Shown here in pieces: positions 19,113 through 37,339 of a stretch of DNA of 38,363 nucleotides (position 1 is its first letter; each line of letters opens with the position of its first letter). The stretch spans positions 1 to 38,363 of the forward strand of contig JALWVW010000335.1 of the NCBI GenBank assembly GCA_027079365.1. Direction: 5' to 3'. Below the pieces are notes generated by a model, which saw only the letters and a program-made list of their open reading frames with translations, was not told the origin of the DNA and ran no database searches. The position numbers and the translations under genes were made by a program. Source of the stretch: Campylobacteraceae bacterium. Lineage in GTDB: Bacteria > Campylobacterota > Campylobacteria > Campylobacterales > Sulfurovaceae.

Positions 19113-19179
19113 AACTGTTTCACATCGTTACAGTATGTGTGTTCTCGCGGAGGTTCCGCAAATCTTCAAACTGTTTCAC
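19113..19179 (+). promoter_or_regulatory. Two direct repeats AACTGTTTCAC upstream of nuoA
   Basis: Exact 11-mer at 19113-19123 and 19169-19179; the second overlaps the -35 region of a candidate promoter with -10 TATAAG at 19196-19201. Confidence 0.45.
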
Positions 19180-19229
19180 CTATATCTTTCGCTACTATAA
19201 GTCCAAATATTCTGATAATTAAAGGAGTG

Positions 19230-19622
19230 ATGATGACTCATGCGATTTCGACACATCCGTATTTCGGTATCTTTTTCCTGCTGGTACTTACCGCAGGTGC
19301 CTTTTACGGTGTTCTGGTACTGCAGCGACTGATCAGTCGCAAGCTCTCCAGACTCGACACAGAAAAGCTGAAAATGTCCCTCTATGAGTGTGGCCCCCGT
19401 GTCAATAAGCAGCCAAATAGTATCTCCATCCAGTTTTATTTGATAGCCCTGCTGTTTATTCTTTTTGATGTGGAGATCGTCTTTATGTTTCCCTGGGCGA
19501 TAGACTTTAAGCTGCTGGGTTGGTTTGGTTTTGTAGAGATGATACTTTTTATATTACTTTTGGCAATTGGATTTGCCTATGCATGGAAGAAAGGAGCACT
19601 TGAATGGCACAGCATCAAGTAA
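19230..19622 (+). CDS. nuoA: NADH-quinone oxidoreductase subunit A
   Basis: ORF track start is 19137; ATG at 19230 follows [51 protein letters not shown]. Confidence 0.95.
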
Positions 19623-20122
19623 ATTACGCCTCGGCAGCAGGACTGCCGGTAGCACTGACATCGGTAGACAAATTGATCAACTGGGGGCGATCCAACTCCC
19701 TCTGGCCTATGACCTATGGACTCGCCTGTTGTGCGATTGAGATGATGGCTACAGGTGCGAGTCGTTATGACTTTGACCGGATGGGGACGATCTTTAGGGC
19801 AAGCCCCAGGCAATCAGATGTCATGATCCTGGCAGGCACCCTTTCCAAAAAGCATGCGGAGTTTACCCGCAGACTCTATGACCAGATGATGGAGCCCAAG
19901 TGGGTGATCTCTATGGGATCCTGTGCCAACACAGGCGGGATGTTCAACACCTATTCGATCGTACAGGGCGTGGACAGGATCGTGCCTGTGGATATTTATC
20001 TCCCAGGCTGTGCCCCCAGACCAGAAACACTCCAATATGCACTGATGATGCTGCAGAAAAAGATTCGTAGAGAATCCGCAGATATGAACAAAAATACCAA
20101 GTCTAACCTGAGGATGCTATAA
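19604..20122 (+). CDS. nuoB: NADH-quinone oxidoreductase subunit B
   Basis: 172 aa; [55 protein letters not shown]. Confidence 0.98.
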
Positions 20123-20910
20123 TGAGAAAATATACCCCCAAAGACAATGTACAGGGCAAAGCATACCATACAGACAGATTTTGGGTTGCACCCTCTGTGC
20201 CGCGTACCGATGCCTCCGAAGATGCACACTTTGCGGCACTGCTGGAAAAGATCAAAGAAAGCATAGCGGTCAAAGATGCCTATATCCAGATTGGGCAGAT
20301 GGTCGTACATATCAACCCTGAAGACAATATCGCCGCGCTTAGACTTGTCAAAGAGGCGTGTGACTATGCCATGTGTACGGAGATCTCTGCAGTGGACTAT
20401 CTGGCACAAGAGGGCGAGTTTGAAGTCTTTTATCAGATGCTCAACCTCAAAAAGGCCAAACGCATCCGTATCGTAACCCGTCTCAAAGAGGGGCAAGCGA
20501 TCGAGAGTGTAGTGCCACTTTTCAACAGTGCCAATTTTGCCGAGAGAGAGATGTATGATATGTTTGGTATCGTGGCAAACAACCACCCCTTTATGAAGCG
20601 TATCTTGATGCCCGATGACTGGGAGGGACACCCGCTGCTCAAAACCTATCCGCTCCAGGGAGATGAAGCGGCATCCTGGTATGAAGTGGACAAGATCTTT
20701 GGCAAAGAGTACCGTGAGATCATCGGTGCAGAAAACAGAGATCCTTCCAAAATAGACCGATACGATACCAAGCGCTTCTCCAGAGTGGGCTATGAGGTGC
20801 CGTTTGATGCGGATATCTCGGAAGGCGAAAAAGAGACACCAATCGAGTACAGCGAAACACTGCTGGTCAATTACAATAAATCATCCAAGCAGTTGGATGA
20901 GCGAAGATAG
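20122..20910 (+). CDS. nuoC: NADH-quinone oxidoreductase subunit C
   Basis: 262 aa; SANFAEREMYDMFGIVANNHPFMKRILMPDDWEGHPLLKTYPL. Confidence 0.96.
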   Translation: MRKYTPKDNVQGKAYHTDRFWVAPSVPRTDASEDAHFAALLEKIKESIAVKDAYIQIGQMVVHINPEDNIAALRLVKEACDYAMCTEISAVDYLAQEGEFEVFYQMLNLKKAKRIRIVTRLKEGQAIESVVPLFNSANFAEREMYDMFGIVANNHPFMKRILMPDDWEGHPLLKTYPLQGDEAASWYEVDKIFGKEYREIIGAENRDPSKIDRYDTKRFSRVGYEVPFDADISEGEKETPIEYSETLLVNYNKSSKQLDERR

Positions 20911-20916
20911 GGGAAG

Positions 20917-22149
20917 ATGATGCAGCAACCTAACAAACTGGTACCATTTTTTGAGAACCTCAATTTTGAGAGAGATGACAATACCATGGTGGTCAACTTT
21001 GGACCCCAGCACCCTTCGGCACATGGACAGCTTCGATTGATGCTGGAGCTCGAAGGCGAGAAAGTGGTCAAGGCCTATCCTGATATCGGCTATCTCCATC
21101 GAGGGATCGAGAAGATGGCAGAAAATATGACCTACAATGAGTTCCTTCCTACTACAGACAGGCTGGACTATATCGCCTCCACAGCCAACAACTATGCCTA
21201 TGCGCATGCGGTAGAAAAGCTCTTGGGTATCGAAGCACCCAGAAGAGCACAGGCGATTCGTACGATGCTCCTGGAACTTAACCGTATCATTTCACACCTC
21301 TTCTTTATCGCAACCCATGCATTGGATGTCGGTGCGATGTCAGTTTTTCTCTATGCGTTCAGAGAGCGTGAGTTTGCTATGGACCTGATGGAGGACTACT
21401 GTGGTGCGAGACTGACACACTCCTCTGTGCGTATCGGTGGTGTACCTTTGGATCTTCCTGAAGGATGGTTAGCGCAGATGATGACCTTCTTGGACAAGAT
21501 GGAGCATGAGCTTGAGCATACCTATGAGGCACTTCTGACAGAGAACCGTATCTGGAAGATGCGTCTGGAGGATGTGGGGGTGATCGATGCAGAAGATGCC
21601 CTCTCCTGGGGTTGCACTGGTCCTATTCTCAGGGGTGCAGGCGTGCAGTATGATGTGCGCAAAGAGGAGCCCTATGAGCTCTATGGTGAGCTGGATTTTG
21701 ATATTCCGGTGAGTGATAGAAATGATGCCTATGGCAGATATATGCTGCATGTAGAGGAGATGCGCCAGTCTGCCAGAATTATCAGACAGGTGATGCCGAT
21801 CTATCGCAAGAGTGAACCGCAGCTGATGGCACATGCGCCTCAGTATCTCTCTGCCCCCAAAGAGGAGATTATGACGCAAAATTATGCACTGATGCAGCAC
21901 TTTGTACTGGTGACACAGGGTATGAGACCTCCCAAGGGAGAGGTGTATGCACCCACAGAGTCCCCCAAGGGAGAACTTGGATTTTATATCAAGTCAGAGG
22001 GTGAGCCCTATGCCTACAGGCTGAAGTGTAGGGCACCAAGCTTCTACCATACGGGTATTTTGCAGAAGGTGCTTGTGGGTACCTATCTGGCAGATGTAGT
22101 CACGATGATCAGTTCATCCAATATCGTCTTTGGCGAAGTAGATCGATAG
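20917..22149 (+). CDS. nuoD: NADH-quinone oxidoreductase subunit D
   Basis: 410 aa; [45 protein letters not shown]-terminal [20 protein letters not shown]. Confidence 0.98.
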
Positions 22150-22158
22150 GAGAAACAG

Positions 22159-22458
22159 ATGAAACGATTTGATTTAAGACACCTGAAAGATGATTTTTAT
22201 GACAGAATGGTTGCGCTGGTTGAGACAGAGACCAAGGTAGGAGAAGTGGCTATCTTTCTCTTTGAGGTGGGCGATTTCACTTCTATTCAGAAGAGTGCAG
22301 ACAGGATCAAGGAGAGTGGACATGAGCTGATGAACTCTCTGAAGTTCAATGAAGTGGACTGGACCATTGTGGTCAAAAGAGCCGACAGAGAGACGCAAAA
22401 AGCACGCCAAACGCATTATCAGGCAGCCAAAGCAGCAGCAGAGGAAGAGGAAAAATAG
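22159..22458 (+). CDS. Small acidic/basic protein in the nuoE position (NuoE replacement, Cj1575c-like by position)
   Basis: 99 aa; contains no cysteine, so it cannot be a canonical 2Fe-2S NuoE; lies between nuoD and the NuoF-like fusion. Confidence 0.75.
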   Translation: MKRFDLRHLKDDFYDRMVALVETETKVGEVAIFLFEVGDFTSIQKSADRIKESGHELMNSLKFNEVDWTIVVKRADRETQKARQTHYQAAKAAAEEEEK

Positions 22459-24470
22459 TGTCTGCAGTAGTTTTTTCGACATGGCAGGGCGAGTTTGTCG
22501 ACAATCGTCATGCCGAAGGCGATGCTGTTGCTCAGACGAGCTTCAAGTTACCAGTTTTGTATACAGCGGAGACGAAATCCAAAGCATTTATTGGCTGGGA
22601 TGGTGTGGCGATCTTTGATAGGGATATTGATGCGGTGAGGCTGGCTACAGAGTATGCTGCTCAGTACCAAGAATACTCCGAAGCCTGTGGTCGATGTGCT
22701 CCGGGAAGATGGGGAGGGCGCATTCTCTATGATATGTTGGATAAGATCGCCAGAGGCGAAGGAAGCTATGCAGATGTAGAGCACCTTCGTGAGGTGAGTC
22801 AGACGATGATGCTGACCTCAAAGTGTGAGATAGGTCGTACCGTTCCTAAGCCGATACTGGATCTACTAGAGCACTACAAGGAGCAGTTTGACAGCTGTAT
22901 CCTAGAGCAGAAGCCCTCCAGGCACTATCAGAGCGATATTGGTTATATTGCCAAGATCACAGCTCCCTGTATGGATGTCTGTCCGGCACATGTGGATATT
23001 CCTGCCTATATCGAGGGCGTCAGAGATATGCAGTTTAGTGAGTCACTGGCAGCGACCAGGCAGACCATGCCATTGGCACATACCTGTGGCAGAGTCTGTC
23101 CCCACCCCTGTGAGGATGCCTGTCGTAGAACCAATTTGGATGAGCCGATCTCTATTATGGAGCTTAAGCGACTGGGCGCAGACTATGAGGCAGACCATGC
23201 GCTCCCTTGGCAACACCCACACGCTCCCAAGCCTCCAAGGAATGATGGCAAAAAGGTAGCGATCGTCGGTGCAGGTCCTGCTGGACTGACAGCAGCTTAT
23301 TATCTGGGACTTGAAGGTATTCGGGTAGATATCTTTGAAGAGCTGCCTGTCAATGGGGGTGAAGTGGCAGTCGGTGTGCCAGAGTACCGTATGCCCATAG
23401 ATAAATACAACAAAGATATTGATTTGGTACTGGAGCTCCCCACTGTTTCCATACAGAATAATCATCGTGTGACTGCCGACAGGCTCAAAGAGCTCGATGC
23501 AGCGTATGACGCTGTTCTTTTGGGCTTTGGCGCACGACTCTCTAAGAAGGTCAGAGCAGACAACGAAAATCCTGATATGGGTGGCTATTGGGGAGCGATT
23601 TCAATGCTGGACAAGGTCAATCTCTGGCACAAGTACCAGATAGGCAGCCCTGCGAGCAATGAACTTAAGGGAAAGACAGTCGTTTGTGTAGGTGGGGGAT
23701 TTACCTCCATGGATGTCGTGCGTTGTGCGATCAGAGAAGGGGCCAAGAAGGTGACTATGCTCTACAGAAGAGACGAGAAGACCATTATTCGCAATACGAC
23801 TTATGAAGAGTACCATGAGGCAGTAGAAGAGGGGGTCGAGTTTATCTTCTACTCCTCTATCCGGGAGATTATAGATGATGGAAAACAGATTACCAAGTTG
23901 ATCGCAGATACCTTTGAGCTGGTACCTGATCCTGATGGCGGCAGACCACAGCTTCTCAAAGTAGAAGGAGGAGAGTTTGAGCTGGAGTGCGACTATCTTA
24001 TCCCCGCTGTTTCCCAGTCCTGCGATATGCAGCTCATCCCCGAAGAGTGGGATCTGAAGCTAACCTCTTGGGGTACGCTATTGACCAACGGCAAAGACTA
24101 TATGACCTCCAAAGAAGGGCTGTTTGCCGCAGGTGACTGCGAGTATGGTCCGATGACGATCGTCAATGCGGTGGGGCAGGCCAAAAGAGCGGCCTCTGTG
24201 ATCAGCAGATACCTCTATAACGGAGGAAAATGTACATTGACAGATGACGAGATCATGGAGGATCATCTCAACCAACTGAGGGTCTATAACAAAAATGAGA
24301 AGATCACAGGCTGGATGCCGGGACTGCCCAGAGAAGAGAGCGAGAAACTTAGTGTAGATGCACGCAAAACAAACAACAGAGAGGTCAACCTCGGCTTTAC
24401 GGGCGAAGAGGCCAGTGCAGAAGCAGAACGCTGTATGCGCTGCTACTATATCTCCATGGTTGCGGTATAG
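22458..24470 (+). CDS. NuoF-position fusion: N3-like Fe-S domain plus GltD-type FAD/NAD(P)H oxidoreductase
   Basis: 670 aa; ACGRCAPGRWGGRILYDMLDKIARGEG resembles the NuoF C-terminal N3 domain; then CMDVCPAHVDIPAYI, CGRVCPHPCEDACRR, VAIVGAGPAGLTAAYYLG and VVCVGGGFTSMDVVR, as in GltD. Confidence 0.88.
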   Translation: MSAVVFSTWQGEFVDNRHAEGDAVAQTSFKLPVLYTAETKSKAFIGWDGVAIFDRDIDAVRLATEYAAQYQEYSEACGRCAPGRWGGRILYDMLDKIARGEGSYADVEHLREVSQTMMLTSKCEIGRTVPKPILDLLEHYKEQFDSCILEQKPSRHYQSDIGYIAKITAPCMDVCPAHVDIPAYIEGVRDMQFSESLAATRQTMPLAHTCGRVCPHPCEDACRRTNLDEPISIMELKRLGADYEADHALPWQHPHAPKPPRNDGKKVAIVGAGPAGLTAAYYLGLEGIRVDIFEELPVNGGEVAVGVPEYRMPIDKYNKDIDLVLELPTVSIQNNHRVTADRLKELDAAYDAVLLGFGARLSKKVRADNENPDMGGYWGAISMLDKVNLWHKYQIGSPASNELKGKTVVCVGGGFTSMDVVRCAIREGAKKVTMLYRRDEKTIIRNTTYEEYHEAVEEGVEFIFYSSIREIIDDGKQITKLIADTFELVPDPDGGRPQLLKVEGGEFELECDYLIPAVSQSCDMQLIPEEWDLKLTSWGTLLTNGKDYMTSKEGLFAAGDCEYGPMTIVNAVGQAKRAASVISRYLYNGGKCTLTDDEIMEDHLNQLRVYNKNEKITGWMPGLPREESEKLSVDARKTNNREVNLGFTGEEASAEAERCMRCYYISMVAV

Positions 24471-24476
24471 GAGGGC

Positions 24477-26729
24477 ATGATGAGCAAAAGAGAAACAATG
24501 CCTTCCCTTGTGACAGTGACCATTGACGGGAAAGTGTGCCAAGGGCAACGGGGCCAAACCATCCTGGAGATCGCCAGAGCGCATGATATCTATATTCCTA
24601 CTATGTGCTACCTGACTAAAGTGATGCCAATCGCATCCTGTCGGATGTGTGTGGTGGCCGTAGAGGGTGTGGAGGGCATGATACTTTCTTGCCAAGAGAG
24701 AGCCGTTGAAGGTGCGGTGATCCATACCCAGAATGAGGCACTCTATCGTGAGCGACAGAATATCATGAAGCTCTATGGGGTCAACCATCCTCTGGAGTGC
24801 GGAGTCTGTGACAAAAGTGGTGAATGTGACCTGCAGAACAAAACACTGGAATTCCATGTTGACCAACAGCCTTTTGCCGCAAAAGATCAGCATAGACCTG
24901 TGCAGGATTGGGGATTTGTCTCCTATGATCCCTCTTTGTGTATCATGTGTGAGAAGTGTGTACGGGTCTCTAATGAAATTACAGGAAACGGTGCGTTGCA
25001 AATAGCCTCAGGTGGGTACAAATCCACCATTGTCAACACCAAAATGGACAAAAGCGATATGTCTTTGGGCGAATCTGCGGCAGTCTGTCCTGTGGGTGCA
25101 CTGGTTGCTACGGATTTCAAGTACAGCAGCAATGCCTGGGAGCTGGAGAAGATTCCGGCAAGCTGTAGCCATTGCAGTGCAGCCTGCCAGCTCTACTACG
25201 AGGTCAAAAATGAAAAGATCTATCGTGTGACCAACGCCTATGAGTTTGCTTCTCTGTGCGGGAGAGGAAGGTTTGATTTTGATTTTGCCAATAGTGGCGT
25301 AGTGAAAGATCAAGAAGCTTTTGATAAAGCAGTCAAGGCACTCTCGGAAGCAGATAGTGTGATCTTTGATTCCAGGATCACCAATGAAGAGGCACTGATT
25401 CTGCAAAAACTCAAAGAGAAACTGGGTTTCAGGCTGGTCAATCATGAGGCTAGAGCCTATCAGAAATTTACTGAGGCCTATAGCAGCATCTCTGGAAAAA
25501 CACTTTACAATGGTACTTTGAAGCAGGTAGCAGAAGCACGCGCTATCATCGTGCTTGGTACGCGACTCCATGATGACAATCCTCAGGTGGATTACCACAT
25601 CACCATGGCGAGCAAGCGACACAAGGCCAGAGTGGTCTATATGCATCCTATGGAAGATGGCAGGATGCAGGAGCGGGTGACACAGTTTGTCAAGTATGAG
25701 GTAGGCACAGAGGATGGTGTGGCTGCACTGCTTGCGCATACTCTGCTGACAGAAGCAGTACTTCCTGCCTCTATCAGAGAAGTGCTGGATGATCTGGATA
25801 TTGGAAACCTGAGTGCCGAAAGCAATATCGGGGAGGAGGAGTTGACTGATATCGCTGTGTCAATGCAGGGCAAAGCCCATCGTGTACTGATCGTGGGAAG
25901 TGATCTCTATGCACACCCCCGTGCCGCACAGATCGCCAAGCTGTTAGCACTGCTGGAGCGTTATGCCGGATTCAGTGTCATGCTGGTGCCGCCTTCAACC
26001 AATACACTGGGCGTCTCCCTGATCTGTACGCTGGATGATAGGACAGAGGGTAAAACCGTAGGCTACCACGCCAAGGCAGATTTTGTACTGAGCAGTAGCC
26101 AAGAGGGTGATCTGGATATGCCGGCACTCAATCAGCAGGAGGGCACTTTCACCCCTCTGGATAAATGTGTGGTGCCTACCCATGTGGCACTGCCCTACGG
26201 GGGGTTTGTGCTGAATGATCTTGCCTCTGCATTAGGTGTGAGGCAGCCTTATACGATAGCGTATACGGCAATGCTTCCGACAGACAAAGGATACCGGACG
26301 GAGCATTTTGATGCATTGCCTGACCACTATGATGCCACAGGGGAAGCGCACAGAGGATATCTTTTGCATGAGCAGACCTGTGCATCTCATCTCGAGATCG
26401 AAGAGGTTGAGGAGCTGGATGGATATGATGGTGTCGTCGTGTATCGCTGCGACAGTCAGGAGATACTTTCTGCCTCTATCCGACCGACAGAAGAAATGCA
26501 GTATATGCCCCTGAAAGGTTCACAGCAGTTTGCAACAGCAGCAAAACTAAAGGACGGAGAGGTGATAGAGTTTATGATTGATGGTGTCACAATGAAACGA
26601 GTGTTTAGGATTGATACATCTATGAAAGGAACAGTAGCACTAAATCCCCAGTTTGACATGGGATTAAGTACTCCTTTGCTATCCTCTTATAGATTTAGCA
26701 GGTTAAAGTTCCAAAGAGTGGAGAGCTGA
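24477..26729 (+). CDS. nuoG: NADH-quinone oxidoreductase subunit G, paralog 1
   Basis: 750 aa; N1b (CYL..SCRMC..SC), N5 (HPLECGVCDKSGEC), N4 (CIMCEKC...CPVGAL), N7 (CSHCSAAC...LCGRGRF). Confidence 0.93.
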   Translation: MMSKRETMPSLVTVTIDGKVCQGQRGQTILEIARAHDIYIPTMCYLTKVMPIASCRMCVVAVEGVEGMILSCQERAVEGAVIHTQNEALYRERQNIMKLYGVNHPLECGVCDKSGECDLQNKTLEFHVDQQPFAAKDQHRPVQDWGFVSYDPSLCIMCEKCVRVSNEITGNGALQIASGGYKSTIVNTKMDKSDMSLGESAAVCPVGALVATDFKYSSNAWELEKIPASCSHCSAACQLYYEVKNEKIYRVTNAYEFASLCGRGRFDFDFANSGVVKDQEAFDKAVKALSEADSVIFDSRITNEEALILQKLKEKLGFRLVNHEARAYQKFTEAYSSISGKTLYNGTLKQVAEARAIIVLGTRLHDDNPQVDYHITMASKRHKARVVYMHPMEDGRMQERVTQFVKYEVGTEDGVAALLAHTLLTEAVLPASIREVLDDLDIGNLSAESNIGEEELTDIAVSMQGKAHRVLIVGSDLYAHPRAAQIAKLLALLERYAGFSVMLVPPSTNTLGVSLICTLDDRTEGKTVGYHAKADFVLSSSQEGDLDMPALNQQEGTFTPLDKCVVPTHVALPYGGFVLNDLASALGVRQPYTIAYTAMLPTDKGYRTEHFDALPDHYDATGEAHRGYLLHEQTCASHLEIEEVEELDGYDGVVVYRCDSQEILSASIRPTEEMQYMPLKGSQQFATAAKLKDGEVIEFMIDGVTMKRVFRIDTSMKGTVALNPQFDMGLSTPLLSSYRFSRLKFQRVES
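26109..26146 (+). repeat. 38-bp exact repeat, copy 1 (in nuoG paralog 1)
   Basis: GATCTGGATATGCCGGCACTCAATCAGCAGGAGGGCAC, identical to 28579-28616. Confidence 0.97.
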
Positions 26730-26730
26730 T

Positions 26731-29190
26731 ATGAGCAGTATTACAATTACGATAGATGGTCAGGCGTGTCAGGCTAAAGAGGGTGAGTTTATTCTCAATA
26801 TTGCCAGAGCCAATGGGATATTTATCCCTGCAATTTGCTACTTGACGCGGTGTTCACCGACATTGGCATGCCGTATCTGTCTGGTTGAAGCAGACGGTAA
26901 GCGGGTCTACTCCTGTAATGCAAAAGCCAAAGACGGGATGAATATCGTTACAAAGAACGAAGAGATACTTGAAGAACGCAGGGCGATCATGGAAGTCTAT
27001 GATGTCAATCATCCTCTGCAGTGCGGTGTCTGTGACCAGAGCGGGGAGTGTGAACTGCAGAACTATACCTTGGAGCTTGGTGTTGATTCGCAGTCTTTTG
27101 CTATTCCCGATACCAAGAGAGAAGCAACCACCTGGAGCTCAGTGCTGCACTATGATCCGGGTCTGTGTATCGTGTGCGAACGATGTGTAACCGTCTGTAA
27201 AGATATGGTGGGTGATGCGGCACTCAGTACGGGTCCTCGTGGCGGAGAGAAGCTGAGCAAAGAGCTCAAGGAGATAGTCCCTAAAGATGCCTATGCCATG
27301 TGGAACAAGCTTCAGAAATCAGTCATCGTGCCCAGTAACGGTACAGGTGAGACCAACTGTAGCGACTGTGGTGAGTGTATCGCTGTCTGTCCTGTGGGTG
27401 CACTGGTCAGCAGGGATTTTCAGTATACCTCCAATGCCTGGGATCTGACACGCATCCCGGCAGTGTCTGCCCACTCCAGTGACGGGTTTCAGATCTACTA
27501 TGAAGTGAAGCCTACGTCTATCGCAGACAGAACACCCAAGATATACAGAGTAACTAATGAGTGGCACTATACTTCACTCGATGGTGCGGCTAGATTTGCC
27601 TATGATTTTGAAAATGGCAGCGCTCAAAAAGATCCTGTTGCTTTTGCCAAGGCAGTGGAGGCCTTGAAAAAGGCAGAGACCATACGCTTCAATGCGACGA
27701 TTACCAATGAAGAGGCATTGATGCTCCAGACACTCAAAGAGAAGCTGGGACTCAAGCTTTATAATCCTGAAGTGGGTGCTTACCAAAAGTTTCTTGCTTC
27801 CTATGCCAAGACAAGCGGTAACAGCCTCTACAGTGGGGATACGGACAAGATCATGAAGGAGAGTGATTTTGTGATTGCGGTGGGTACGCACCTCAGAAAT
27901 GAAGCACCAGGCAGCAGGCATGCCTTTAACAATGTACAGAAAATGAACAAAGGTGCCGGGCTCTATTTCCATCCTGTAGGAGATGCCCTTGTCCCTACCT
28001 TTGGTAAATCTGTCAGCCAGTTTGCGTATAGTCCTGGTCTGGAAGAGGCGGCACTCTATCTGATTCTTGATCTGTTTGCAGACAAGGAGAAACTCCCCAA
28101 AGAGGTTGCAGCATATCTAGAGGATTTCCACAGTACAGAGACAAAGACTGTCCAAGAGAAAGTCATGGTCGATGTGGTGGAGACTGTGGTGGACGAGGAG
28201 ACAGGTGAGAGCAAAGAGGTGACCAAAAAAGTACCTCAGATGGTGGAGAAAGAGATCGAAGTGGTGCGTAATGGACTGGTAGAACTTCTGGGTAAAAAGA
28301 GCGATACTTTCGCTGCAGAATTTGAGAAGATGCTCAAGAAAAAAGAGCGTTTCTCTCTGATGGTGGGAGAGGATCTCTATTATCACGAGAAGGCGGAAAA
28401 TCTTGCCAAACTGGTAGCACTTATCGAAAAAGCATGTGACTTTGATCTGGTGATCATCCCACCAAAATCCAATGCCTTAGGTGTCGCATTGATCTGTGCA
28501 CTGGATGACCAGGCCTCTGGCTACACGGTTGGGTACAATGAAAATGGTGACTTTAGACTCTCTGCACTGGGTGACGGAGATCTGGATATGCCGGCACTCA
28601 ATCAGCAGGAGGGCACACTGACCACACTTGGCAAAAGGATCGTACCCACCAACGCAGCACTGCCGTATCATGGATATGAGCTCAATGATCTTGTGCGAGA
28701 GCTTGTAGGTGCCCCTGCCGAGACGATTGACTGGACAGCAAAACTCCCCAAAAAGAGAGGCTACAAAGCAGTGGCATTTGATGCCCTCACCAATGCCTAC
28801 AGCAATGATGGTGTAGATCACAGAGGGTATCTTCTTGATACTGAGAGTAGAGAGGAGAAGCTTCCTGAAGTAGAAACTCCTGCAGTCTACAGTGCACTTG
28901 AGGGTGAGATCGCAGTGCGTCTCAACCCTGGCAGACAGTTCAGTGATTTTACAGACAAGGCACATCAGATATTTGAGCCCTTTGCGCTCTATACGAGTCC
29001 AGAGAAAGCAGCAGAGCTAGGCGCACGCGTTGAGGTGGTATTCAAAAACAGGGTGTTGAAACTGGATGTTATCGCCGATGACAAGATGGAGGGAGATATC
29101 GTCTGTGTGCCTGACTTTAAAAGCCGTGAAGATATCTATGGGCTCTTCGGCGATCGCCGCTATCAAACAGTAACACTAAGAAAGGGTTAG
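26731..29190 (+). CDS. nuoG: NADH-quinone oxidoreductase subunit G, paralog 2
   Basis: 819 aa; N1b and N5 motifs; CIVCERCVTVC...CSDCGECIAVCPVGAL (two 4Fe-4S clusters); N7 ligands absent (VSAHSSDGF, LDGAARF). Confidence 0.92.
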   Translation: MSSITITIDGQACQAKEGEFILNIARANGIFIPAICYLTRCSPTLACRICLVEADGKRVYSCNAKAKDGMNIVTKNEEILEERRAIMEVYDVNHPLQCGVCDQSGECELQNYTLELGVDSQSFAIPDTKREATTWSSVLHYDPGLCIVCERCVTVCKDMVGDAALSTGPRGGEKLSKELKEIVPKDAYAMWNKLQKSVIVPSNGTGETNCSDCGECIAVCPVGALVSRDFQYTSNAWDLTRIPAVSAHSSDGFQIYYEVKPTSIADRTPKIYRVTNEWHYTSLDGAARFAYDFENGSAQKDPVAFAKAVEALKKAETIRFNATITNEEALMLQTLKEKLGLKLYNPEVGAYQKFLASYAKTSGNSLYSGDTDKIMKESDFVIAVGTHLRNEAPGSRHAFNNVQKMNKGAGLYFHPVGDALVPTFGKSVSQFAYSPGLEEAALYLILDLFADKEKLPKEVAAYLEDFHSTETKTVQEKVMVDVVETVVDEETGESKEVTKKVPQMVEKEIEVVRNGLVELLGKKSDTFAAEFEKMLKKKERFSLMVGEDLYYHEKAENLAKLVALIEKACDFDLVIIPPKSNALGVALICALDDQASGYTVGYNENGDFRLSALGDGDLDMPALNQQEGTLTTLGKRIVPTNAALPYHGYELNDLVRELVGAPAETIDWTAKLPKKRGYKAVAFDALTNAYSNDGVDHRGYLLDTESREEKLPEVETPAVYSALEGEIAVRLNPGRQFSDFTDKAHQIFEPFALYTSPEKAAELGARVEVVFKNRVLKLDVIADDKMEGDIVCVPDFKSREDIYGLFGDRRYQTVTLRKG
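28579..28616 (+). repeat. 38-bp exact repeat, copy 2 (in nuoG paralog 2)
   Basis: Identical to 26109-26146. Confidence 0.97.
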
Positions 29191-29191
29191 T

Positions 29192-30226
29192 ATGGAAACA
29201 ACAATGATACATGAAGTGACCTGGATCGGCGCAGCGGTCAAAGCATTGATTGCTTTGCTGCTCGTTTCAGCGGTCGCAGGATTTGGTACCTATATAGAGA
29301 GGAAGGTGTTGGCATGGATGCAGCGACGACCCGGCCCTGCACATGTAGGGCCTTTCGGGCTGTTGCAACTGGCAGCGGATGGTATCAAACTCTTTACCAA
29401 AGAGGACTTTATCCCACAGTTTTCCAACCGCTTGATCTTCTCAATTGCACCTGTGATCACTGCAGGAACAGCCTTTATTGCGCTGGCAGCAGTGCCGCTT
29501 TTCCCTGACTTTACCTTTCCTTCGTGGATACCGCTGCTAGGAGGCGTATTTGTCCCTTCTATTGCATCTGATGTCAATATAGGGATACTCTTTATCCTCG
29601 CAGCGATGGCGGCAGGACTGTATGGTCCTCTGCTTGCAGGCATGTCTCAGCAAAACAAATGGGGGATTATCGGTGCAGCGAGAACAGCTGTACAGTTTCT
29701 CAGCTACGAGGTTGTCACCGGGCTTTCGCTGTTGGCACCTATTATGCTAGTCAGTTCCCTTTCTTTGGTGGACTTCAATAACTATCAGGCAGGCGGTATT
29801 GGCTCATGGATGCTTTGGCAGCAGCCTTTGGCATTTATTCTCTTTTTGATCGCAGGATTTGCAGAGACCAACCGTACACCCTTTGACCTGCTTGAGCATG
29901 AAGCAGAGATTGTTTCGGGCTTTGTGACGGAGTACAGTGGACTTCGCTGGGGACTCTTCTTTGTGGGTGAGTATGCCAACATGATCACGATCGGTGTACT
30001 TGCATCGGTGGTCTTTTGTGGTGGCTACAGTGACCTCTGGTTGATTCCGGGTTGGTTGATGATGGGGCTCAAGGTGAGCTTCTTCTTCTTTTTGATGTTG
30101 TGGGTAAGGGCTTCCTGGCCGCATATCAGACCTGACCAGTTGATGTGGTTGAGCTGGAAAGTATTGATGCCGCTGGCAGTTGTCAATGTAGTGATCACCG
30201 GTATCGTCATGATGGCGATGGCATAA
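29192..30226 (+). CDS. nuoH: NADH-quinone oxidoreductase subunit H
   Basis: 344 aa; YIERKVLAWMQRRPGPAHVGPFGLLQLAADGIKLFTKED; AETNRTPFDLLEHEAEIVSGFVTEYSG. Confidence 0.98.
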   Translation: METTMIHEVTWIGAAVKALIALLLVSAVAGFGTYIERKVLAWMQRRPGPAHVGPFGLLQLAADGIKLFTKEDFIPQFSNRLIFSIAPVITAGTAFIALAAVPLFPDFTFPSWIPLLGGVFVPSIASDVNIGILFILAAMAAGLYGPLLAGMSQQNKWGIIGAARTAVQFLSYEVVTGLSLLAPIMLVSSLSLVDFNNYQAGGIGSWMLWQQPLAFILFLIAGFAETNRTPFDLLEHEAEIVSGFVTEYSGLRWGLFFVGEYANMITIGVLASVVFCGGYSDLWLIPGWLMMGLKVSFFFFLMLWVRASWPHIRPDQLMWLSWKVLMPLAVVNVVITGIVMMAMA

Positions 30227-30235
30227 GGAGTAGCA

Positions 30236-30859
30236 ATGAGCTTAGAACAATTTAAAAATAGAAATGTAGGACAGCAGCAGTACCGTATGCTGGATCTAGG
30301 AAAGACGCCTGAGACAGGTTGGGGAAGATTCAAGCAGGTACTGGGCAGATCACTTAAGGTGGAGCTGCTGATAGGGTTGGGTGTAACTTTTGGTGTGATG
30401 ATCCGTACCCTCTTTCGCGGGGAGACCCATACGATCCGTTATCCTTTTGAGAAGATACCTATCTCCCGTAGATACCGCGCTATCCACGAGATGAAACGAC
30501 TGCTGGAGAGCGGACACTATCGCTGTATTGGATGTGGACTTTGTGAAAAGATCTGTATCTCCAACTGTATTACGATGGACACGCGCTATGATGAGAATCA
30601 GCGTAAAGAGGTTAGTGAATACAGCATCAATTTTGGTCGATGTATCTTCTGTGGGTATTGTGCAGAGGTCTGTCCGGAGCTTGCGATCGTACATGGAGAC
30701 AGATATGAGACAGCCTCCGAGCAGCGTGCGAGCTTCTCGCTCTTTGAGGACATGCTGACACCAATCGACAAGCTGAAGTCTCAACAAGAGTATCCAGGGT
30801 TTGGGGCAGTCTCCCCCAATGCGGATGAGAATATCAAAAAAACGCCATTAGCGTATTAA
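30236..30859 (+). CDS. nuoI: NADH-quinone oxidoreductase subunit I
   Basis: 207 aa; CIGCGLCEKICISNC and CIFCGYCAEVCPELAI. Confidence 0.97.
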   Translation: MSLEQFKNRNVGQQQYRMLDLGKTPETGWGRFKQVLGRSLKVELLIGLGVTFGVMIRTLFRGETHTIRYPFEKIPISRRYRAIHEMKRLLESGHYRCIGCGLCEKICISNCITMDTRYDENQRKEVSEYSINFGRCIFCGYCAEVCPELAIVHGDRYETASEQRASFSLFEDMLTPIDKLKSQQEYPGFGAVSPNADENIKKTPLAY

Positions 30860-30869
30860 GGGAGTATAG

Positions 30870-31427
30870 ATGATAACCATTGCTTTTTATTTCTTTGCTG
30901 TACTCATTACACTCCTCTTTTTGGTGACCGTAATGAGTAAAAACGTGCTGTATGCTATGACCTCTCTTGCAGCAGGTATGGTATTGATATCAGGACTCTT
31001 CTTTATCTTGGGTGCTGATTTCCTTGGTGTGGTGCAGCTGATCGTCTATGTGGGTGCCGTCATGGCACTGTACTCTTTTGCCATGATGTTCTTTGATGTC
31101 AATAAAGATGTCAAAGAGAAAAATGGCAGCGCTGCTACGGTATTTCTCTTAGGTGGTGCTATCGCATTGATGCTGGTGCTGGTCTTTTCTGCACCGATGA
31201 TCGGACAGGGGGCGGCTTCGCTATATCCTCAAGTGGCAGGCGCTACCAATCCTCAAGCAGTAGGTCTGGTACTGTTTACCAAGTATCTTGTGCCGTTTGA
31301 GGTGGCCGCAGTGATGTTGCTGGTAGCCATGATCGCTGGTATCATACTGGCAGGGAAGAAAATGGATCTGAGTCTCTCGACAACAGAAGAAGAGATCTTG
31401 GATGAGACACAAGGAGGTGACAAATGA
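30870..31427 (+). CDS. nuoJ: NADH-quinone oxidoreductase subunit J
   Basis: 185 aa; GADFLGVVQLIVYVGAVMALYSFAMMFF. Confidence 0.97.
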   Translation: MITIAFYFFAVLITLLFLVTVMSKNVLYAMTSLAAGMVLISGLFFILGADFLGVVQLIVYVGAVMALYSFAMMFFDVNKDVKEKNGSAATVFLLGGAIALMLVLVFSAPMIGQGAASLYPQVAGATNPQAVGLVLFTKYLVPFEVAAVMLLVAMIAGIILAGKKMDLSLSTTEEEILDETQGGDK

Positions 31428-31726
31428 TAGGGCTTAGCCATTACCTGATACTTTCAGGTATCCTGTTTTCGATAGGACTGATAGGGGTGCTAAGAAGAAA
31501 GAATCTGCTGATGCTCTTTTTTGCGACAGAGATTATGCTCAATGCGGCCAATATCGCTTTTGCTGCCATCTCCAGTCACTATCATGATATGGCAGGGCAG
31601 ATGTTTGCCTTCTTTGTCATAGCTGTAGCTGCAAGTGAAGTGGCCGTAGGACTTGGTTTGCTGGTGATACTGTACAAAAAGTATGGCACGCTTGACCTTG
31701 ATATGTATACAGTGATGAGGGGGTAA
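31424..31726 (+). CDS. nuoK: NADH-quinone oxidoreductase subunit K
   Basis: 100 aa; GVLRRKNLLMLFFATEIMLNAANIAF; ATGA overlap with nuoJ. Confidence 0.97.
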   Translation: MIGLSHYLILSGILFSIGLIGVLRRKNLLMLFFATEIMLNAANIAFAAISSHYHDMAGQMFAFFVIAVAASEVAVGLGLLVILYKKYGTLDLDMYTVMRG

Positions 31727-31728
31727 GG

Positions 31729-33651
31729 ATGGAAAATTTAGTCTATATCGCGCTCTTCGCACCGCTGGTTGGCTCGCTGTTTGCTGCACTGTTTGGGATG
31801 CAAAAGAAAAATGCTATTACCGGTATCGTGACATCTATGTTGCTTTTTATCTCTTTTGTCGCCTCTGCGATCCTTTTCAATCATGTGATGACCGTAGGGC
31901 CAGTTCATGTGAGAATGATGGACTGGATCATGGCAGGAGATATGCTGATCCCCTTTGGGTTCTTGGTTGATCAGGTTTCGGTAACGATGATGACAGTAGT
32001 GACACTGGTCTCTACTGTGGTACATATCTATTCCAACGGTTACATGGATCATGATAAGAGCTTCAATCGCTTTTTCTCCTATCTTTCTGCTTTCGTCTTC
32101 TCCATGATGGTGCTGGTCATGAGTGATAACTTTTTGGGGCTCTTTATCGGATGGGAAGGCGTGGGTGTCTGCTCATGGCTCCTGATCGGATTTTGGTATC
32201 ACAAAGAAGATGTCAGTAGAGAAGTTAACCCTTCGATCTCTCCTTCTTGGGCAGCCAATGAAGCATTTATCATGAACCGTATCGCTGACCTTGGCATGCT
32301 CATAGGTATCTTTATTCTGTACTGGAATATTGGCTCTTTGCAGTACGATGTTGTTTTTGCAGCATTGCCAAATCTCAGCGACGGCATATTGGTTGCGGCT
32401 GCGGTGGCACTCTTCATCGGCGCGATGGGTAAATCAGCACAGTTTCCTCTGCATACCTGGCTAACCGATGCGATGGAGGGTCCTACACCCGTCTCCGCAC
32501 TGATCCATGCTGCCACGATGGTGACAGCCGGTGTCTTCTTGGTGATTCGTGCCAATCCACTCTATAGTATGGAAGCAGTACACTGGGTGAGCTACTTTAT
32601 CGCCAGCCTGGGTACTTTTGTGGCGATTTTCGCTGCCTCCATGGCGCTGGTTAATCGTGATCTCAAGCGCATCATTGCCTTCTCCACACTGTCTCAGCTA
32701 GGGTATATGTTTGCCGCTGCCGGACTGGGTGCCTACTGGATCGCACTCTTCCATCTTGCAGCGCATGCCTTCTTCAAAGCACTGCTTTTCTTGGGTGCAG
32801 GTAATGTCATGCATGCGATGGATGGTGAGCTGGATATTTTCAAGATGGGAGGACTCAAAAAAGTGATGCGTTGGACCTATCTCTATATGGGACTTGCCTC
32901 TTTGGCACTGTCGGGGATTGGTATCGCCGGAATTGGTTTTGCCGGATACTTCTCCAAAGATGCGATCATAGAGACAGCCTTCAATGAGCATACCTATATT
33001 CTCTGGGTGATTCTGGTGGTGACTGCTGGTCTGACAGCATTTTACAGCTTCAGACAGGTGTTTTTGACCTTCCATGGCAATGAACGCTACCATGAGATTG
33101 GTGCCCATCCGCATGAGATGTATACCTATGTATTGATCGGTATGTCACCTCTTGCGATTCTTGCCGTGATTGCCGGATTCTTTCAGGACTGGTTTGAGCA
33201 CTTTGTCACAGCTTTGTTGCCGGAGTATCACATGAGTGAGCATACCCACCATCTCTCTTGGATATTAGGACTGATAGTGATTGCCTTTGCTGTAGGAGGC
33301 ATCGTGTTGGCCTATGTCAAATACAATAGAGGGCTTAAGCGCAACGAAAAGCTTGAGCATTCCTTTGTCTATAAACTCTTGGCAAATCAGTACTATATAC
33401 CAATATTGTATGAAAAGATCTTTTCCCAGCCTTATGCTGCACTTTCCAAGTTCTCATGGGCTGTACTGGATCAAAAAGTGGTTGATGCTACCGTGGACGG
33501 TATCGGCCATATCATCAAAAGCACAGGGGACAATACACGCAAGATCCAAACAGGAAACCTCTCAGACTACCTTAGATGGATGGCAGGTGGAGCCCTATTG
33601 CTTGTCGTGATTGCCTTTGTGGCGTTTAAACTCAGCCAAGGAGCTAACTAA
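31729..33651 (+). CDS. nuoL: NADH-quinone oxidoreductase subunit L
   Basis: 640 aa; GWEGVGVCSWLLIGFW; KSAQFPLHTWLTDAMEGPTPVSALIHAATMVTAGVFL. Confidence 0.98.
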   Translation: MENLVYIALFAPLVGSLFAALFGMQKKNAITGIVTSMLLFISFVASAILFNHVMTVGPVHVRMMDWIMAGDMLIPFGFLVDQVSVTMMTVVTLVSTVVHIYSNGYMDHDKSFNRFFSYLSAFVFSMMVLVMSDNFLGLFIGWEGVGVCSWLLIGFWYHKEDVSREVNPSISPSWAANEAFIMNRIADLGMLIGIFILYWNIGSLQYDVVFAALPNLSDGILVAAAVALFIGAMGKSAQFPLHTWLTDAMEGPTPVSALIHAATMVTAGVFLVIRANPLYSMEAVHWVSYFIASLGTFVAIFAASMALVNRDLKRIIAFSTLSQLGYMFAAAGLGAYWIALFHLAAHAFFKALLFLGAGNVMHAMDGELDIFKMGGLKKVMRWTYLYMGLASLALSGIGIAGIGFAGYFSKDAIIETAFNEHTYILWVILVVTAGLTAFYSFRQVFLTFHGNERYHEIGAHPHEMYTYVLIGMSPLAILAVIAGFFQDWFEHFVTALLPEYHMSEHTHHLSWILGLIVIAFAVGGIVLAYVKYNRGLKRNEKLEHSFVYKLLANQYYIPILYEKIFSQPYAALSKFSWAVLDQKVVDATVDGIGHIIKSTGDNTRKIQTGNLSDYLRWMAGGALLLVVIAFVAFKLSQGAN

Positions 33652-35177
33652 TGGATGGTATTTTAACAGTTTTACTTTTCTTTCCGCTACTTGCGGGACT
33701 GCTTGGCTTTGTGGTCAACAAGGACAGTATCAGAGCCTATGGTATAGCGGTGGCCTCTATAGAGTTTCTGCTCTCACTCTGGCTTTGGATGTCTTTTGAT
33801 GTCAGTCATGCAGGATTCCAGTTTGTAGAGAACATTCCGCTGGTTTCTGATTTTGGTATCAGTTACTATGTGGGTGTGGATGGGATCAGCCTCTTCATTA
33901 TTATTATGGCAACATTGATGACGCTGATAGGTATTGTTGCGCTCAATATTAAAAAAGATGTCAAAAATATGATTATCACGCTTCTCTTTTTGGAAGTGGC
34001 GATGGTCGGTGTCTTTATCTCTTTGGATGCGATTATCTTCTATCTTTTCTGGGAGTTTTCCCTGGTACCAATGCTCTATATTATTGGTGCCTGGGGCGGA
34101 GAGAGACGACTGTACGCAGCGGTCAAATTCTTTCTCTACACCTTTGCCGGCTCATTAATCATGCTAATAGGCATGCTGTATGTGGCTTATGTGTACCATT
34201 CCGTCTCTGGCTCTTGGAGCTTTGCGATCACGGACTGGTATGCGTTGATCCTGCCGCTAGATGTTGAGAAGTGGTTGTTCTGGGCATTCTTCCTTGGGTT
34301 TGCAATCAAGGTACCGATGTTCCCATTCCATACCTGGCTGCCCTATGCGCATGGTCAGGCACCGACAGTGGGTTCAGTCATCTTGGCAGCAGTGCTGCTC
34401 AAGATGGGTACCTATGGTTTTGTGAGATTCTCATTGCCGATGTTCCCTGATGCTTCCGTGCTCTATATTACGCCTGTAGCGATTCTAGCGATCATTATGA
34501 TCATCTATACGGCGATGGTCGCCTATGCGCAGGAGGACATGAAGCAGACGATCGCCTACTCCTCTGTATCGCATATGGGTGTGATCATTATCGGTACGTT
34601 TGCCATGAACGCAGAAGGAATCACTGGATCGATCTTCTTGATGCTTTCGCATGGTATCGTCTCGGGCGCACTCTTCCTCTTGGTAGGATCGATCTATGAC
34701 CGACGCCATACCAAGCTGATGAGTGAGTTTGGAGGGCTGGCTTCTGTGATGCCAAAGTATGCCGTGATCTACGGTATTATGCTGATGGCTTCTGTGGGTC
34801 TGCCACTGACAATTGGATTTGTAGGAGAGTATCTCTCTCTGGCAGGATTCTATAAGATATCACCAGTCATGACAGCCCTTGCAGGCACCTCGATCATCTT
34901 GGGAGCCGTGTATATGCTGAACCTCTACAAGCGTTCCTTCTTTGGCCCTGTGACCAATGAAGCAAATAAAAAACTGAATGACCTAGATGGCAAAGAGTTG
35001 GCAGCACTGGTGCCGCTGGTACTGATCGTTATCTGGCTGGGAGTCTATCCCAAGCCTGTATTGGTACCGATTGACAATTCGGTCAGGGCATTGACCAGCT
35101 TTATGCATGAAAAGGCACAGACAAAAACGGCAAAAGCCACCATACTGGTAAGCAAAAAAAATAAGGAGATGAAGTAA
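33651..35177 (+). CDS. nuoM: NADH-quinone oxidoreductase subunit M
   Basis: 508 aa; FWEFSLVPMLYIIGAWGGERR; KVPMFPFHTWLPYAHGQAPTVGSVILAAVLLKMGTYG. Confidence 0.98.
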   Translation: MDGILTVLLFFPLLAGLLGFVVNKDSIRAYGIAVASIEFLLSLWLWMSFDVSHAGFQFVENIPLVSDFGISYYVGVDGISLFIIIMATLMTLIGIVALNIKKDVKNMIITLLFLEVAMVGVFISLDAIIFYLFWEFSLVPMLYIIGAWGGERRLYAAVKFFLYTFAGSLIMLIGMLYVAYVYHSVSGSWSFAITDWYALILPLDVEKWLFWAFFLGFAIKVPMFPFHTWLPYAHGQAPTVGSVILAAVLLKMGTYGFVRFSLPMFPDASVLYITPVAILAIIMIIYTAMVAYAQEDMKQTIAYSSVSHMGVIIIGTFAMNAEGITGSIFLMLSHGIVSGALFLLVGSIYDRRHTKLMSEFGGLASVMPKYAVIYGIMLMASVGLPLTIGFVGEYLSLAGFYKISPVMTALAGTSIILGAVYMLNLYKRSFFGPVTNEANKKLNDLDGKELAALVPLVLIVIWLGVYPKPVLVPIDNSVRALTSFMHEKAQTKTAKATILVSKKNKEMK

Positions 35178-36697
35178 TGTTAGAGTCTATCTCAGTAAGT
35201 TTAGAATCCCTAAACCTGATCACACTTTCTCCCATGCTGATTGCTATTGTTGGTGCGTTGCTGATTCTCGTGATTGATCTTTTCAAAGAGAATTTGGACA
35301 AGACACTCTATGTGATGCTGACCATGCTGATACTGTTTGTAGATATTGGAGCAACCTATAGTCTCAATATCAACGAACGGGGATTTTTTGACCTGATGCT
35401 GGTAGATGGTATTTCAGTGGTGTCACAGCTGATCATTCTGATTGCATCACTGTTCTTTATTCCTCTGGCACTGACTGCGTCAAGTAAGCGTTTTCATGAA
35501 TATTCCTATCCTGAGTATTTTGCCCTCTTCCTCTTTATGGTGGCAGGATTCCAGTTTATGGTTTCGACGGATAATCTGATATTGATCTTTGTCGGACTGG
35601 AGACGGCATCACTCTCTCTGTACACTTTGATAGCGATGCACAATACCAAAGGCGCACATGAGGCAGCAGTAAAGTACTTTACTATGGGTGCGCTTGCAGC
35701 TGGCTTCTTCCTAATGGGTTCAGCAGCGATCTATGCCTTGACAGGCTCGGTTGAGCTATACGAAGTAGCCAAGATACTTCAGTCACAGGGAGCTGATAGT
35801 ACAGCCTTTATGCTGCCTGTACTGGGAGGCGTAGTGCTGATGTTGGTAGCCGTAGGATTCAAGGTTTCTCTCTTTCCTTTTCATATGTGGACACCGGATG
35901 TCTACGAGGGCTCCAGCGCACCTATGGCAGGCTATATGTCTATCGTACCAAAGTTGGCTATGGTGACAGTAGCGATGCGTATTTTCGGTATCTATATCAA
36001 TCTGGATATCGAGGCGGTCTCCTATCTGATTATTATCATTGCGGTGATCACCATGACGCTTTCCAATATGATGGCACTGGTACAGAAGGATGTCAAGCGG
36101 ATGCTTGCCTACAGCTCTATCTCTCATGCAGGCTTTATCATGGCGGCATTGGCATTGGGCACTACCAAAGCCAATAGCAGTATTTTCCTCTACTATGCGA
36201 TGTTTATGGTAACCAACCTAGGTGCCTTTGCCATGCTCTGGATCTCTCAGCATAAGAAAAAAAGCTTTGATGAGCGCTATGACCATCCCTTTGAGAAATT
36301 TTCCGGTATGATCTCGATCTCACCGATGGCAGCAGTGGTCATGGGTATCTTTATGCTCTCTCTGGCAGGTGTGCCTCCCTTCAGTCTCTTCTGGGGTAAA
36401 CTGTATCTAATCAGCTCGGTCGTGGATTTCGCTGTGGCAACAGCAGAGACCAAATATATGATCTTGGCGATCGTGATGGTGCTCAACTCTGCGATCGCGG
36501 CATACTATTACCTCAAGCTGATCGTGTATATGTTCCTCAGAGCACCCTCGACTTCTGAAACGGTCGTTTATGCCAACCAGTCCCGACCACTCAATGTAGT
36601 GATTGGTATTTTGGTGGTAATCACGATTACTTCGATCTTCTATGTACAGCCTCTGCTTGAGTTCATCTCCTATCTCGTAAGCTCCAGTGGATATTAA
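35177..36697 (+). CDS. nuoN: NADH-quinone oxidoreductase subunit N
   Basis: 506 aa; KVSLFPFHMWTPDVYEGSSAPMAGYMSIVPK; AYSSISHAGFIM. Confidence 0.97.
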   Translation: MLESISVSLESLNLITLSPMLIAIVGALLILVIDLFKENLDKTLYVMLTMLILFVDIGATYSLNINERGFFDLMLVDGISVVSQLIILIASLFFIPLALTASSKRFHEYSYPEYFALFLFMVAGFQFMVSTDNLILIFVGLETASLSLYTLIAMHNTKGAHEAAVKYFTMGALAAGFFLMGSAAIYALTGSVELYEVAKILQSQGADSTAFMLPVLGGVVLMLVAVGFKVSLFPFHMWTPDVYEGSSAPMAGYMSIVPKLAMVTVAMRIFGIYINLDIEAVSYLIIIIAVITMTLSNMMALVQKDVKRMLAYSSISHAGFIMAALALGTTKANSSIFLYYAMFMVTNLGAFAMLWISQHKKKSFDERYDHPFEKFSGMISISPMAAVVMGIFMLSLAGVPPFSLFWGKLYLISSVVDFAVATAETKYMILAIVMVLNSAIAAYYYLKLIVYMFLRAPSTSETVVYANQSRPLNVVIGILVVITITSIFYVQPLLEFISYLVSSSGY

Positions 36698-36808: not shown

Positions 36809-37339
36809 TTGAAAGAAATTACTTTAGAGACAAAGATCTACGATCTTCTCGGCGACTACCAAGGGATGAAAGAGATCCTGATAGGGATTAACCCCAAATT
36901 TAAAAAACTCAACAACCCGGTACTTCGTCGTACGCTTGGTAGGGTTGCTGGTGTGAGGCAAGCGGCTATTGTAGGTGGTATGGAGCCCATGGATCTGCTT
37001 AATCAGCTCCGTTTGGCAGTAGGACAAGAGTCTATTTGTGAGACCTGCACAGAAGAGTCAGAAGCATGTCATGTGCCTGCTGCAGTGCCAAGACCTAGTT
37101 GGCTACAGGGTGACCCTGCAGCTATACTCGATGCCAATCAGATCCTGGATGAGGATAAAAACCCCTTGGCACTTGCCCGAAAGGCACTAAAGTCTTTGGA
37201 GGCGGACAGATTTATCCTTCTTGTGGCTGATTTTCGCCCAGAGCCTCTGATTGATGAGTTTATCAAGGATGGCCATCTTGTCTATACCGAAGAGCACAAA
37301 GACACTCTGTTCTATACCTATGTCCAAAAAGTGTATTAG
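36809..37339 (+). CDS. DUF1858-like / DUF2249-like two-domain protein
   Basis: 176 aa, TTG start; N-terminal LETKIYDLLGDYQGMKEILIGINPKFKKLNNPVLRRTLGRVAGVRQAAIVGGM (DUF1858-like); C-terminal ILLVADFRPEPLIDEFIKDGHLVYTEEHKDTLFYTYVQKV (DUF2249-like). Confidence 0.75.
   Translation: MKEITLETKIYDLLGDYQGMKEILIGINPKFKKLNNPVLRRTLGRVAGVRQAAIVGGMEPMDLLNQLRLAVGQESICETCTEESEACHVPAAVPRPSWLQGDPAAILDANQILDEDKNPLALARKALKSLEADRFILLVADFRPEPLIDEFIKDGHLVYTEEHKDTLFYTYVQKVY

Follow-up and report, generated by a model that had tools for sequence, protein, structure and literature searches.

The nuo operon in the stretch of Campylobacteraceae DNA analysed here (38,363 nucleotides in all, hereafter the window) encodes an epsilon-type complex I with a probable accessory arm of NuoG/GltD type, and carries two NuoG paralogues in tandem, G1 and G2. 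In the reading that we favor, to which we give a probability of roughly two in three, G2 is the core electron inlet, G1 together with an unusual NuoF-like protein (F) forms an extra NAD(P)H/ferredoxin arm, and Campylobacter and Helicobacter retain only a stub of G1. The identity of this stub is the most surprising part of the analysis.

The genes for F, G1, G2 and a small protein, E, lie between nuoD and nuoH, with neighbors overlapping or separated by a few bases (Table 1). A promoter scan returned matches at chance level (26 versus 25.5), and we claim no internal promoter; terminator-like matches were more frequent than in shuffled sequence (32 versus 12), but mostly fell within genes. Directly 5' of nuoA, at 17361-19094, is a gene for an AAA+ ATPase with a winged-helix domain. 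Homologues are found at this position in several other families, which raises the possibility of a link to the assembly or regulation of complex I. A DUF1858/DUF2249 protein is encoded immediately 3' of nuoN (36809-37339). Elsewhere in the window, a long-chain acyl-CoA synthetase gene (3957-5846, minus strand) sits within a ribosomal protein operon, between map/infA-like genes and rpsM.

Table 1. Features of the nuo operon, in window coordinates.
Feature	Position	Strand	Basis
nuoA-N operon, epsilon-type complex I (A, B, C, D, E-like, F-like, G1, G2, H, I, J, K, L, M, N)	19137..36697	+	Pfam/NCBIfam matches for each ORF examined; spacing tight or overlapping
E, 99 aa PF16514 protein (NuoX/HP1264 type), standing where canonical NuoE would	22159..22458	+	PF16514 E=8.5e-39; PDB 2LXR 4e-25
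F, 670 aa: NuoF C-terminal part (N3 region, no FMN domain), Fer4_20 and GltD/NfnB-like FAD/NAD(P)H module	22458..24470	+	Pfam, NCBIfam and PDB matches
G1, accessory NuoG paralogue (N1b, N5, N4, N7), 750 aa	24477..26729	+	NF006305 816 bits; ligand alignment
G2, core NuoG of epsilon-type complex I (N1b, N5, N4 and second 4Fe-4S; N7 lost), 819 aa	26731..29190	+	NF006305 1054 bits, full length; ligand alignment; monophyly with the single full-length NuoG of F-less lineages
G1 N4 ligand region and degenerate second 4Fe-4S site (S165, D194, L197, S200)	24939..25088	+	Ligand alignment
G1 N7 ligands C230/C233/C237/C261	25164..25259	+	Ligand alignment
G1 residues 351-504, segment retained in F-less stubs; holds G1-only signature at residue 441	25527..25988	+	Stub alignment, motif scan
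G1 residues 630-750, second segment retained in F-less stubs	26364..26729	+	Stub alignment, profile comparison
G2 two-cluster ferredoxin-like region (N4 C146/149/152/220; second cluster C156/210/213/216)	27166..27390	+	Ligand alignment
G2 degenerate N7 site (S246, S249, F253, D284)	27466..27582	+	Ligand alignment

In epsilon-Nuo, nuoE and nuoF are replaced by nuoXY, i.e., Cj1575c/Cj1574c (PMC6682613; PMC4178425). The window shares with this system its operon order, a PF16514 protein between nuoD and nuoG, and a G2-type NuoG. It differs in that NuoY there is a protein of 230-340 aa, whereas the window has F and a full-length second NuoG, of which NuoY is a degenerate form; the short NuoY (Cj1574c/HP1265) is absent from the window and was found only in operons without F. 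PF16514 occurs in 242 of 298 genomes from the phylum. The E of the window is related to H. pylori HP1264 (the protein of PDB 2LXR), which has been reported to bind FMN (PMC6269979), and could be a flavodoxin-facing flavin protein.

F matches NuoF at positions 293-408 only (profile search), that is, it covers just the C-terminal part of NuoF and therefore lacks the FMN domain. Its N3 region keeps cysteines C77, C80 and C123, and the third position is a glycine (Gly83) in 46/46 homologues. The terminal CxxC (C659, C662) is likewise found in all 46, and almost every one of them keeps the Fer4_20 cysteines and the glycine-rich nucleotide motifs. The three-cysteine N3-like site (residues 77-123) and the conserved CxxC (659-662) thus coexist in F, and might together build one unusual cluster. 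The operon does not encode a canonical NADH-oxidising N-module (NuoEFG), as F is without the FMN/NADH domain and has an incomplete N3 site, and E belongs to PF16514 and is not a 2Fe-2S NuoE.

The two NuoG reading frames are both intact and 1 nt apart, and the proteins share 47% identity across G2 residues 2-467 and 537-732. Both pass the Campylobacterota NuoG model NF006305/PRK08493 (cut-off 591 bits; scores in Table 1) and miss the cut-off of the general NuoG equivalog TIGR01973 (233 and 166 bits for G1 and G2, cut-off 470). By alignment, and in window numbering, G1 carries N1b (C44/55/58/72), N5 (H104, C108/111/117), N4 (C155/158/161/204) and N7, and G2 carries N1b (C36/47/50/62), N5 (H94, C98/101/107) and N4; the second 4Fe-4S site of the ferredoxin-like region is complete in G2 and lost in G1, and N7 is lost in G2 (Table 1). 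A first-pass annotation of the sequence had described just this arrangement, namely tandem paralogues that both keep N1b, N5 and N4, the first with N7 and a single ferredoxin-region cluster, the second with both such clusters and no N7 ligands, and the alignment bears it out, including the assignment of the cysteines, an error in which it had named as grounds for giving up its interpretation. N1b, N5, N4 and the molybdopterin-fold C-terminus are common to canonical NuoG/Nqo3 (E. coli, Thermus) and both window copies, and N7 to canonical NuoG/Nqo3 and G1; unlike the canonical proteins, G2 carries a second ferredoxin-type 4Fe-4S, as do HydA/HoxU and Aquifex NuoG. In the AlphaFold model of G1 (15 sequences) the Fe-S half has a pLDDT below 50, and cluster geometry was not taken from this model.

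The window genome is a fragmented 2.04 Mb draft of 391 contigs, as one might expect if the pair were an assembly artefact or a recent redundant duplication. We give this practically no credence: many families have the pair, and so do single-contig genomes (G022, G027), and an identity of only 47% does not befit a recent duplication. Its occurrence in closed genomes rules out an assembly artefact.

We surveyed the ligands in 42 full-length G1 and 68 full-length G2 sequences from relatives, and in 33 and 80, respectively, from named genomes, two sets that partly overlap. N1b (4 Cys), N5 (His and 3 Cys) and N4 (4 Cys) are intact in every copy of both sets (42/42 G1 and 68/68 G2 in the relatives alignment), and N7 is retained in 39/42 G1 and 44/68 G2 of the relatives. 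The second 4Fe-4S of G2 is present without exception (68/68 relatives and 80/80 named, or 148/148 together in partly overlapping samples), and that of G1 in 32/42 relatives and 25/33 named sequences. At the level of loci, 54 of the 72 having two full copies carry every cluster in both, and only 3 show the reciprocal pattern of the window (G1 second cluster lost, G2 N7 lost). Eight others have lost the G1 second cluster only, keeping N7 in both copies, one the G2 N7 only, and six the G1 second cluster plus N7 from both copies. Treated as traits on the tree, loss of the G1 second cluster and loss of the G2 N7 showed no significant association (independent-pairs test). The pattern of the window is the sum of two late, lineage-limited losses.

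These counts bear on the idea that G1 and G2 are complementary input arms sharing out one ligand set, of which G1 would have N7 and G2 the second cluster. The pattern does recur in the genus of the window (the window itself, L034, L035 and L037) and in genus g7 (L043), but the predominance of loci with all clusters in both copies, the rarity of reciprocal loci, the loss of N7 from both copies in six loci, and a locus (L232) with neither G1 nor the N7 of G2 make this idea improbable. Since the pattern is not general, it offers no argument for a division of labor, and the census rules out reciprocal ligand loss as a signal of a functional split. The division of labor that the first-pass annotation had read from the pattern nevertheless survives on other grounds: G1 and G2 probably hold different roles, because the Fe-S half of G1 occurs only alongside F, while there is no case of G2, or of its second cluster, being lost.

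The coupling of F and G1 was scored on a tree of G2 and NuoH, on which the presence of F coincides with a full-length G1 at 66/66 loci. F changes state seven times on this tree and G1 follows every time (7/7 independent pairs, p=0.016). Among named genomes, a sample that partly overlaps the former, 29 loci have F and a full G1, 40 have no F and a stub, 2 have no F and no G1, and none is discordant (71/71 scored loci); nine loci in which E lies beyond the contig edge were left unscored, and L035 and L037, whose contigs stop before F, were left out of F scoring. Across some 80 retrieved loci, operons with F all have a full-length G1 where the contig allows, and those without F have either nothing or a short ORF at the G1 position. 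This short ORF (the stub, 230-340 aa) matches the G1 profile at about positions 340-505 and 630-747 only, with no Fe-S domains left. Both states are found inside Sulfuricurvum (L190 versus L207 and L211) and inside genus g2 of the window's own family (L038 and L057 versus L048). There are also two intermediates, of 472 aa (L066) and 480 aa (Sulfurovum L231), in which F and the Fe-S half of G1 are missing but most of the remainder is kept. A tree of the stubs (145 columns) is too short alone to prove separate origins, hence the use of the G2 and NuoH tree. The loss series is a clear example of a redox module dropped from complex I repeatedly and in parallel.

In two drafts, of Sulfurovum and Sulfurimonas, E and G2 are kept but F is absent and nothing matches G1 (L232 3539-4971; L233 4977-4992). 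A Sulfurovaceae genome (G015) has two F-less nuo operons (L048, L049), and one of their stubs groups with family f19, which suggests horizontal transfer.

G2 is monophyletic (100/100), and its clade takes in the single full NuoG of F-less lineages. Being the only full NuoG there, G2 is inferred to be the core NuoG, which hands electrons to NuoI. G1 is paraphyletic under a long-branched outgroup, which leaves a single duplication unproved. A remnant of a standard NuoG from a second complex I was ruled out for G1, as standard NuoG-like proteins fall as the outgroup. The retention of N1b, N5 and N4 in every copy of both would suit interchangeable NuoG subunits giving rise to two complex I isoforms; yet only G1 is ever truncated, always with F, the two copies fall into separate old lineages, and the second cluster is invariably kept by G2 alone, so that isoforms seem to us a shade less probable still than a shared-out ligand set.

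We also considered that F and G1 might be a separate soluble NAD(P)H:ferredoxin/flavodoxin oxidoreductase of the Stn/Nfn kind, merely encoded in the nuo operon. The PDB matches of F are to Stn/Nfn/GltD chains, in addition to the C-terminus of NuoF/HydB, and its best structural relatives are thus soluble; moreover, Stn itself unites GltD and NuoG modules (PMC10482914). Against this, most lineages that lost F still have the C-terminal parts of G1 within their nuo operon, and Cj1574c has been assigned to complex I in earlier work (PMC4178425), both of which suggest contact between G1 and the complex; F is also without the FMN/HydB part of Stn. A separate enzyme is therefore unlikely in our estimation, though it is the strongest of the competing explanations. 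In StnC of the Stn transhydrogenase (PMC10482914) and in NfnAB, as in the window, a GltD-like FAD/NADPH module is joined to NuoG/NuoF-type Fe-S modules. Stn and NfnAB, however, are soluble, bifurcate electrons and have a HydB-type subunit with FMN, whereas the window has a GltD/Nfn-like FAD module in F, no HydB-type FMN subunit among its nuo genes, and thus an FMN-less module inside a complete nuo operon.

A further parallel comes from NUO-2 of Nitrospina gracilis and the Kuenenia complex, described as having an FMN-less NuoF with extra ferredoxin-like clusters and a NuoG with an extra 4Fe-4S, and proposed to run in reverse for the rTCA cycle (PMC3578206). Going by this published description, the window shares with NUO-2 the FMN-less NuoF and the NuoG with an additional 4Fe-4S; it differs in that its F has a GltD FAD/NAD(P)H module and no third N3 cysteine, and neither a tandem NuoG pair nor a truncation series has been reported for the Nitrospina and Kuenenia complexes.

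The stub links these observations to Campylobacter and Helicobacter. The C. jejuni operon (L159) has two ORFs between nuoD and a G2-type nuoG, and encodes an E of 75 aa, a stub of 230 aa, a G2 of 820 aa and NuoH. Cj1575c and Cj1574c are reported to occupy the places of nuoE and nuoF, and Cj1574c, probably with Cj1575c, has been credited with electron transfer from flavodoxin (PMC4178425; PMC6682613). For C. jejuni, the electron source has been described as flavodoxin/ferredoxin and not NADH. In genome G111, E (locus L126) is near-identical to H. pylori HP1264 (PDB 2LXR), so the adjoining 339 aa stub takes the position of HP1265; both Cj1574c and HP1265 were identified by position, not by locus tag. 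In profile comparisons (hhalign), Campylobacteraceae stubs matched G1 at 99.8% probability (E=1e-29), G2 at 85.8% (5e-6) and F, as a control, at 1%, and Helicobacteraceae stubs matched G1 at 100% (E=2e-40) and G2 at 99.0% (8e-18). A G1-only signature at about residue 441, LDxGYLSAESNxGEEE (D-x-G-x-L-S-x-E...GEEE), occurs in 31/42 full-length G1 and in 25/30 stubs; no G2 (0/68) carries it, nor does any other kind of ORF in a set of 3,789. The AlphaFold2 model of the C. jejuni stub (pLDDT 94) has formate dehydrogenase and NuoG/Nqo3 chains as its best Foldseek matches. In the curated libraries, stubs gave no convincing Pfam family, with one weak Molybdopterin match, and only sub-threshold matches to NF006305. 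As profile comparison, G1-only motif and predicted fold agree, the 'NuoF replacement' of Campylobacter and Helicobacter appears to be a truncated G1 without Fe-S ligands. Searching the literature for NuoG paralogues or a second NuoG gene turned up nothing on Campylobacterota, and the literature examined contains no statement of a NuoG ancestry for Cj1574c/HP1265, although earlier recognition elsewhere is possible.

Stubs also stand alone in three genomes without an E gene, hinting at a role outside complex I. Genome G031 (L063 6362-8877) has no PF16514 and a standard-type complex I only, and there a lone stub follows the AAA+ gene 12 bp on; the other orphans, L070 (7795-8505) and L067 (2723-3340), lie beside hemN-like and polA-like genes in genomes without an epsilon-type E.

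The homologies, the ligand sets, the coupling of F with G1, the descent of the stub and the monophyly of G2 are shown by this analysis. Taken together, these results suggest the following scheme, in which the placing of F, G1 and G2 in one complex, the electron path, its direction and the role of the stub are inferred from sequence. Electrons would pass through the G2 clusters (second 4Fe-4S, N4, N5) to NuoI and on to menaquinone. G1, putatively an older paralogue, would be an accessory redox subunit working with F, which would contribute a GltD/NfnB-like FAD and NAD(P)H site, two ferredoxin-like clusters and the three-cysteine N3-like site, and the two would form an extra arm joining NAD(P)H (or ferredoxin) to G2. 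As the redox half of G1 is kept only with F, electrons most likely travel through G1 between F and the remainder; the C-terminal parts of G1 probably contact the complex, since they outlast F and remain in the operon. On loss of F, the Fe-S half of G1 is lost too, leaving only molybdopterin-fold C-terminal parts, probably an assembly or docking piece, and this remaining stub appears to be Cj1574c/HP1265 (NuoY). The missing third cysteine of the N3-like site, in 46/46 homologues, counts against this scheme, as a path from F to G1 would not be the textbook one.

In autotrophs the arm would probably often run in reverse, supplying reductant for the reductive TCA cycle. ATP-citrate lyase is found in 40 of 44 genomes with F versus 4 of 27 without (Fisher p=8e-11), and that F-containing genomes mostly possess it fits reverse electron transport for this cycle. 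Four genomes with F have no ATP-citrate lyase gene, and with phylogeny controlled the association is not significant (median p 0.25, 0 pairs opposed), independent pairs being too few. A tie between F and autotrophy as an established fact was thus dropped, and we keep it as a hint.

More tentatively, and with somewhat less than even confidence, we propose a 'double-NuoG' complex I for the ancestral Campylobacterota: docked on G2 was an arm of F and G1, bringing a GltD-type FAD and about five additional clusters, which ran in reverse and provided NAD(P)H or ferredoxin to support carbon fixation. In Campylobacter, Helicobacter, Arcobacter and Sulfurospirillum the arm would have been lost in parallel, leaving a cofactor-less stub (Cj1574c/HP1265) that docks the flavodoxin inlet and does not carry electrons. 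The arm is a candidate route of reverse electron transport in abundant sulfur-oxidising autotrophs. How flavodoxin or ferredoxin enters complex I in Campylobacter and Helicobacter has long been open, with Cj1574c/HP1265, a protein of unrecognised family, cast as the electron acceptor. Should the stub indeed be a NuoG paralogue cut down to a form with no Fe-S ligands, a direct part for it in electron transfer becomes unlikely, and the second cluster of G2 and the FMN protein of the HP1264 type become the places to look.
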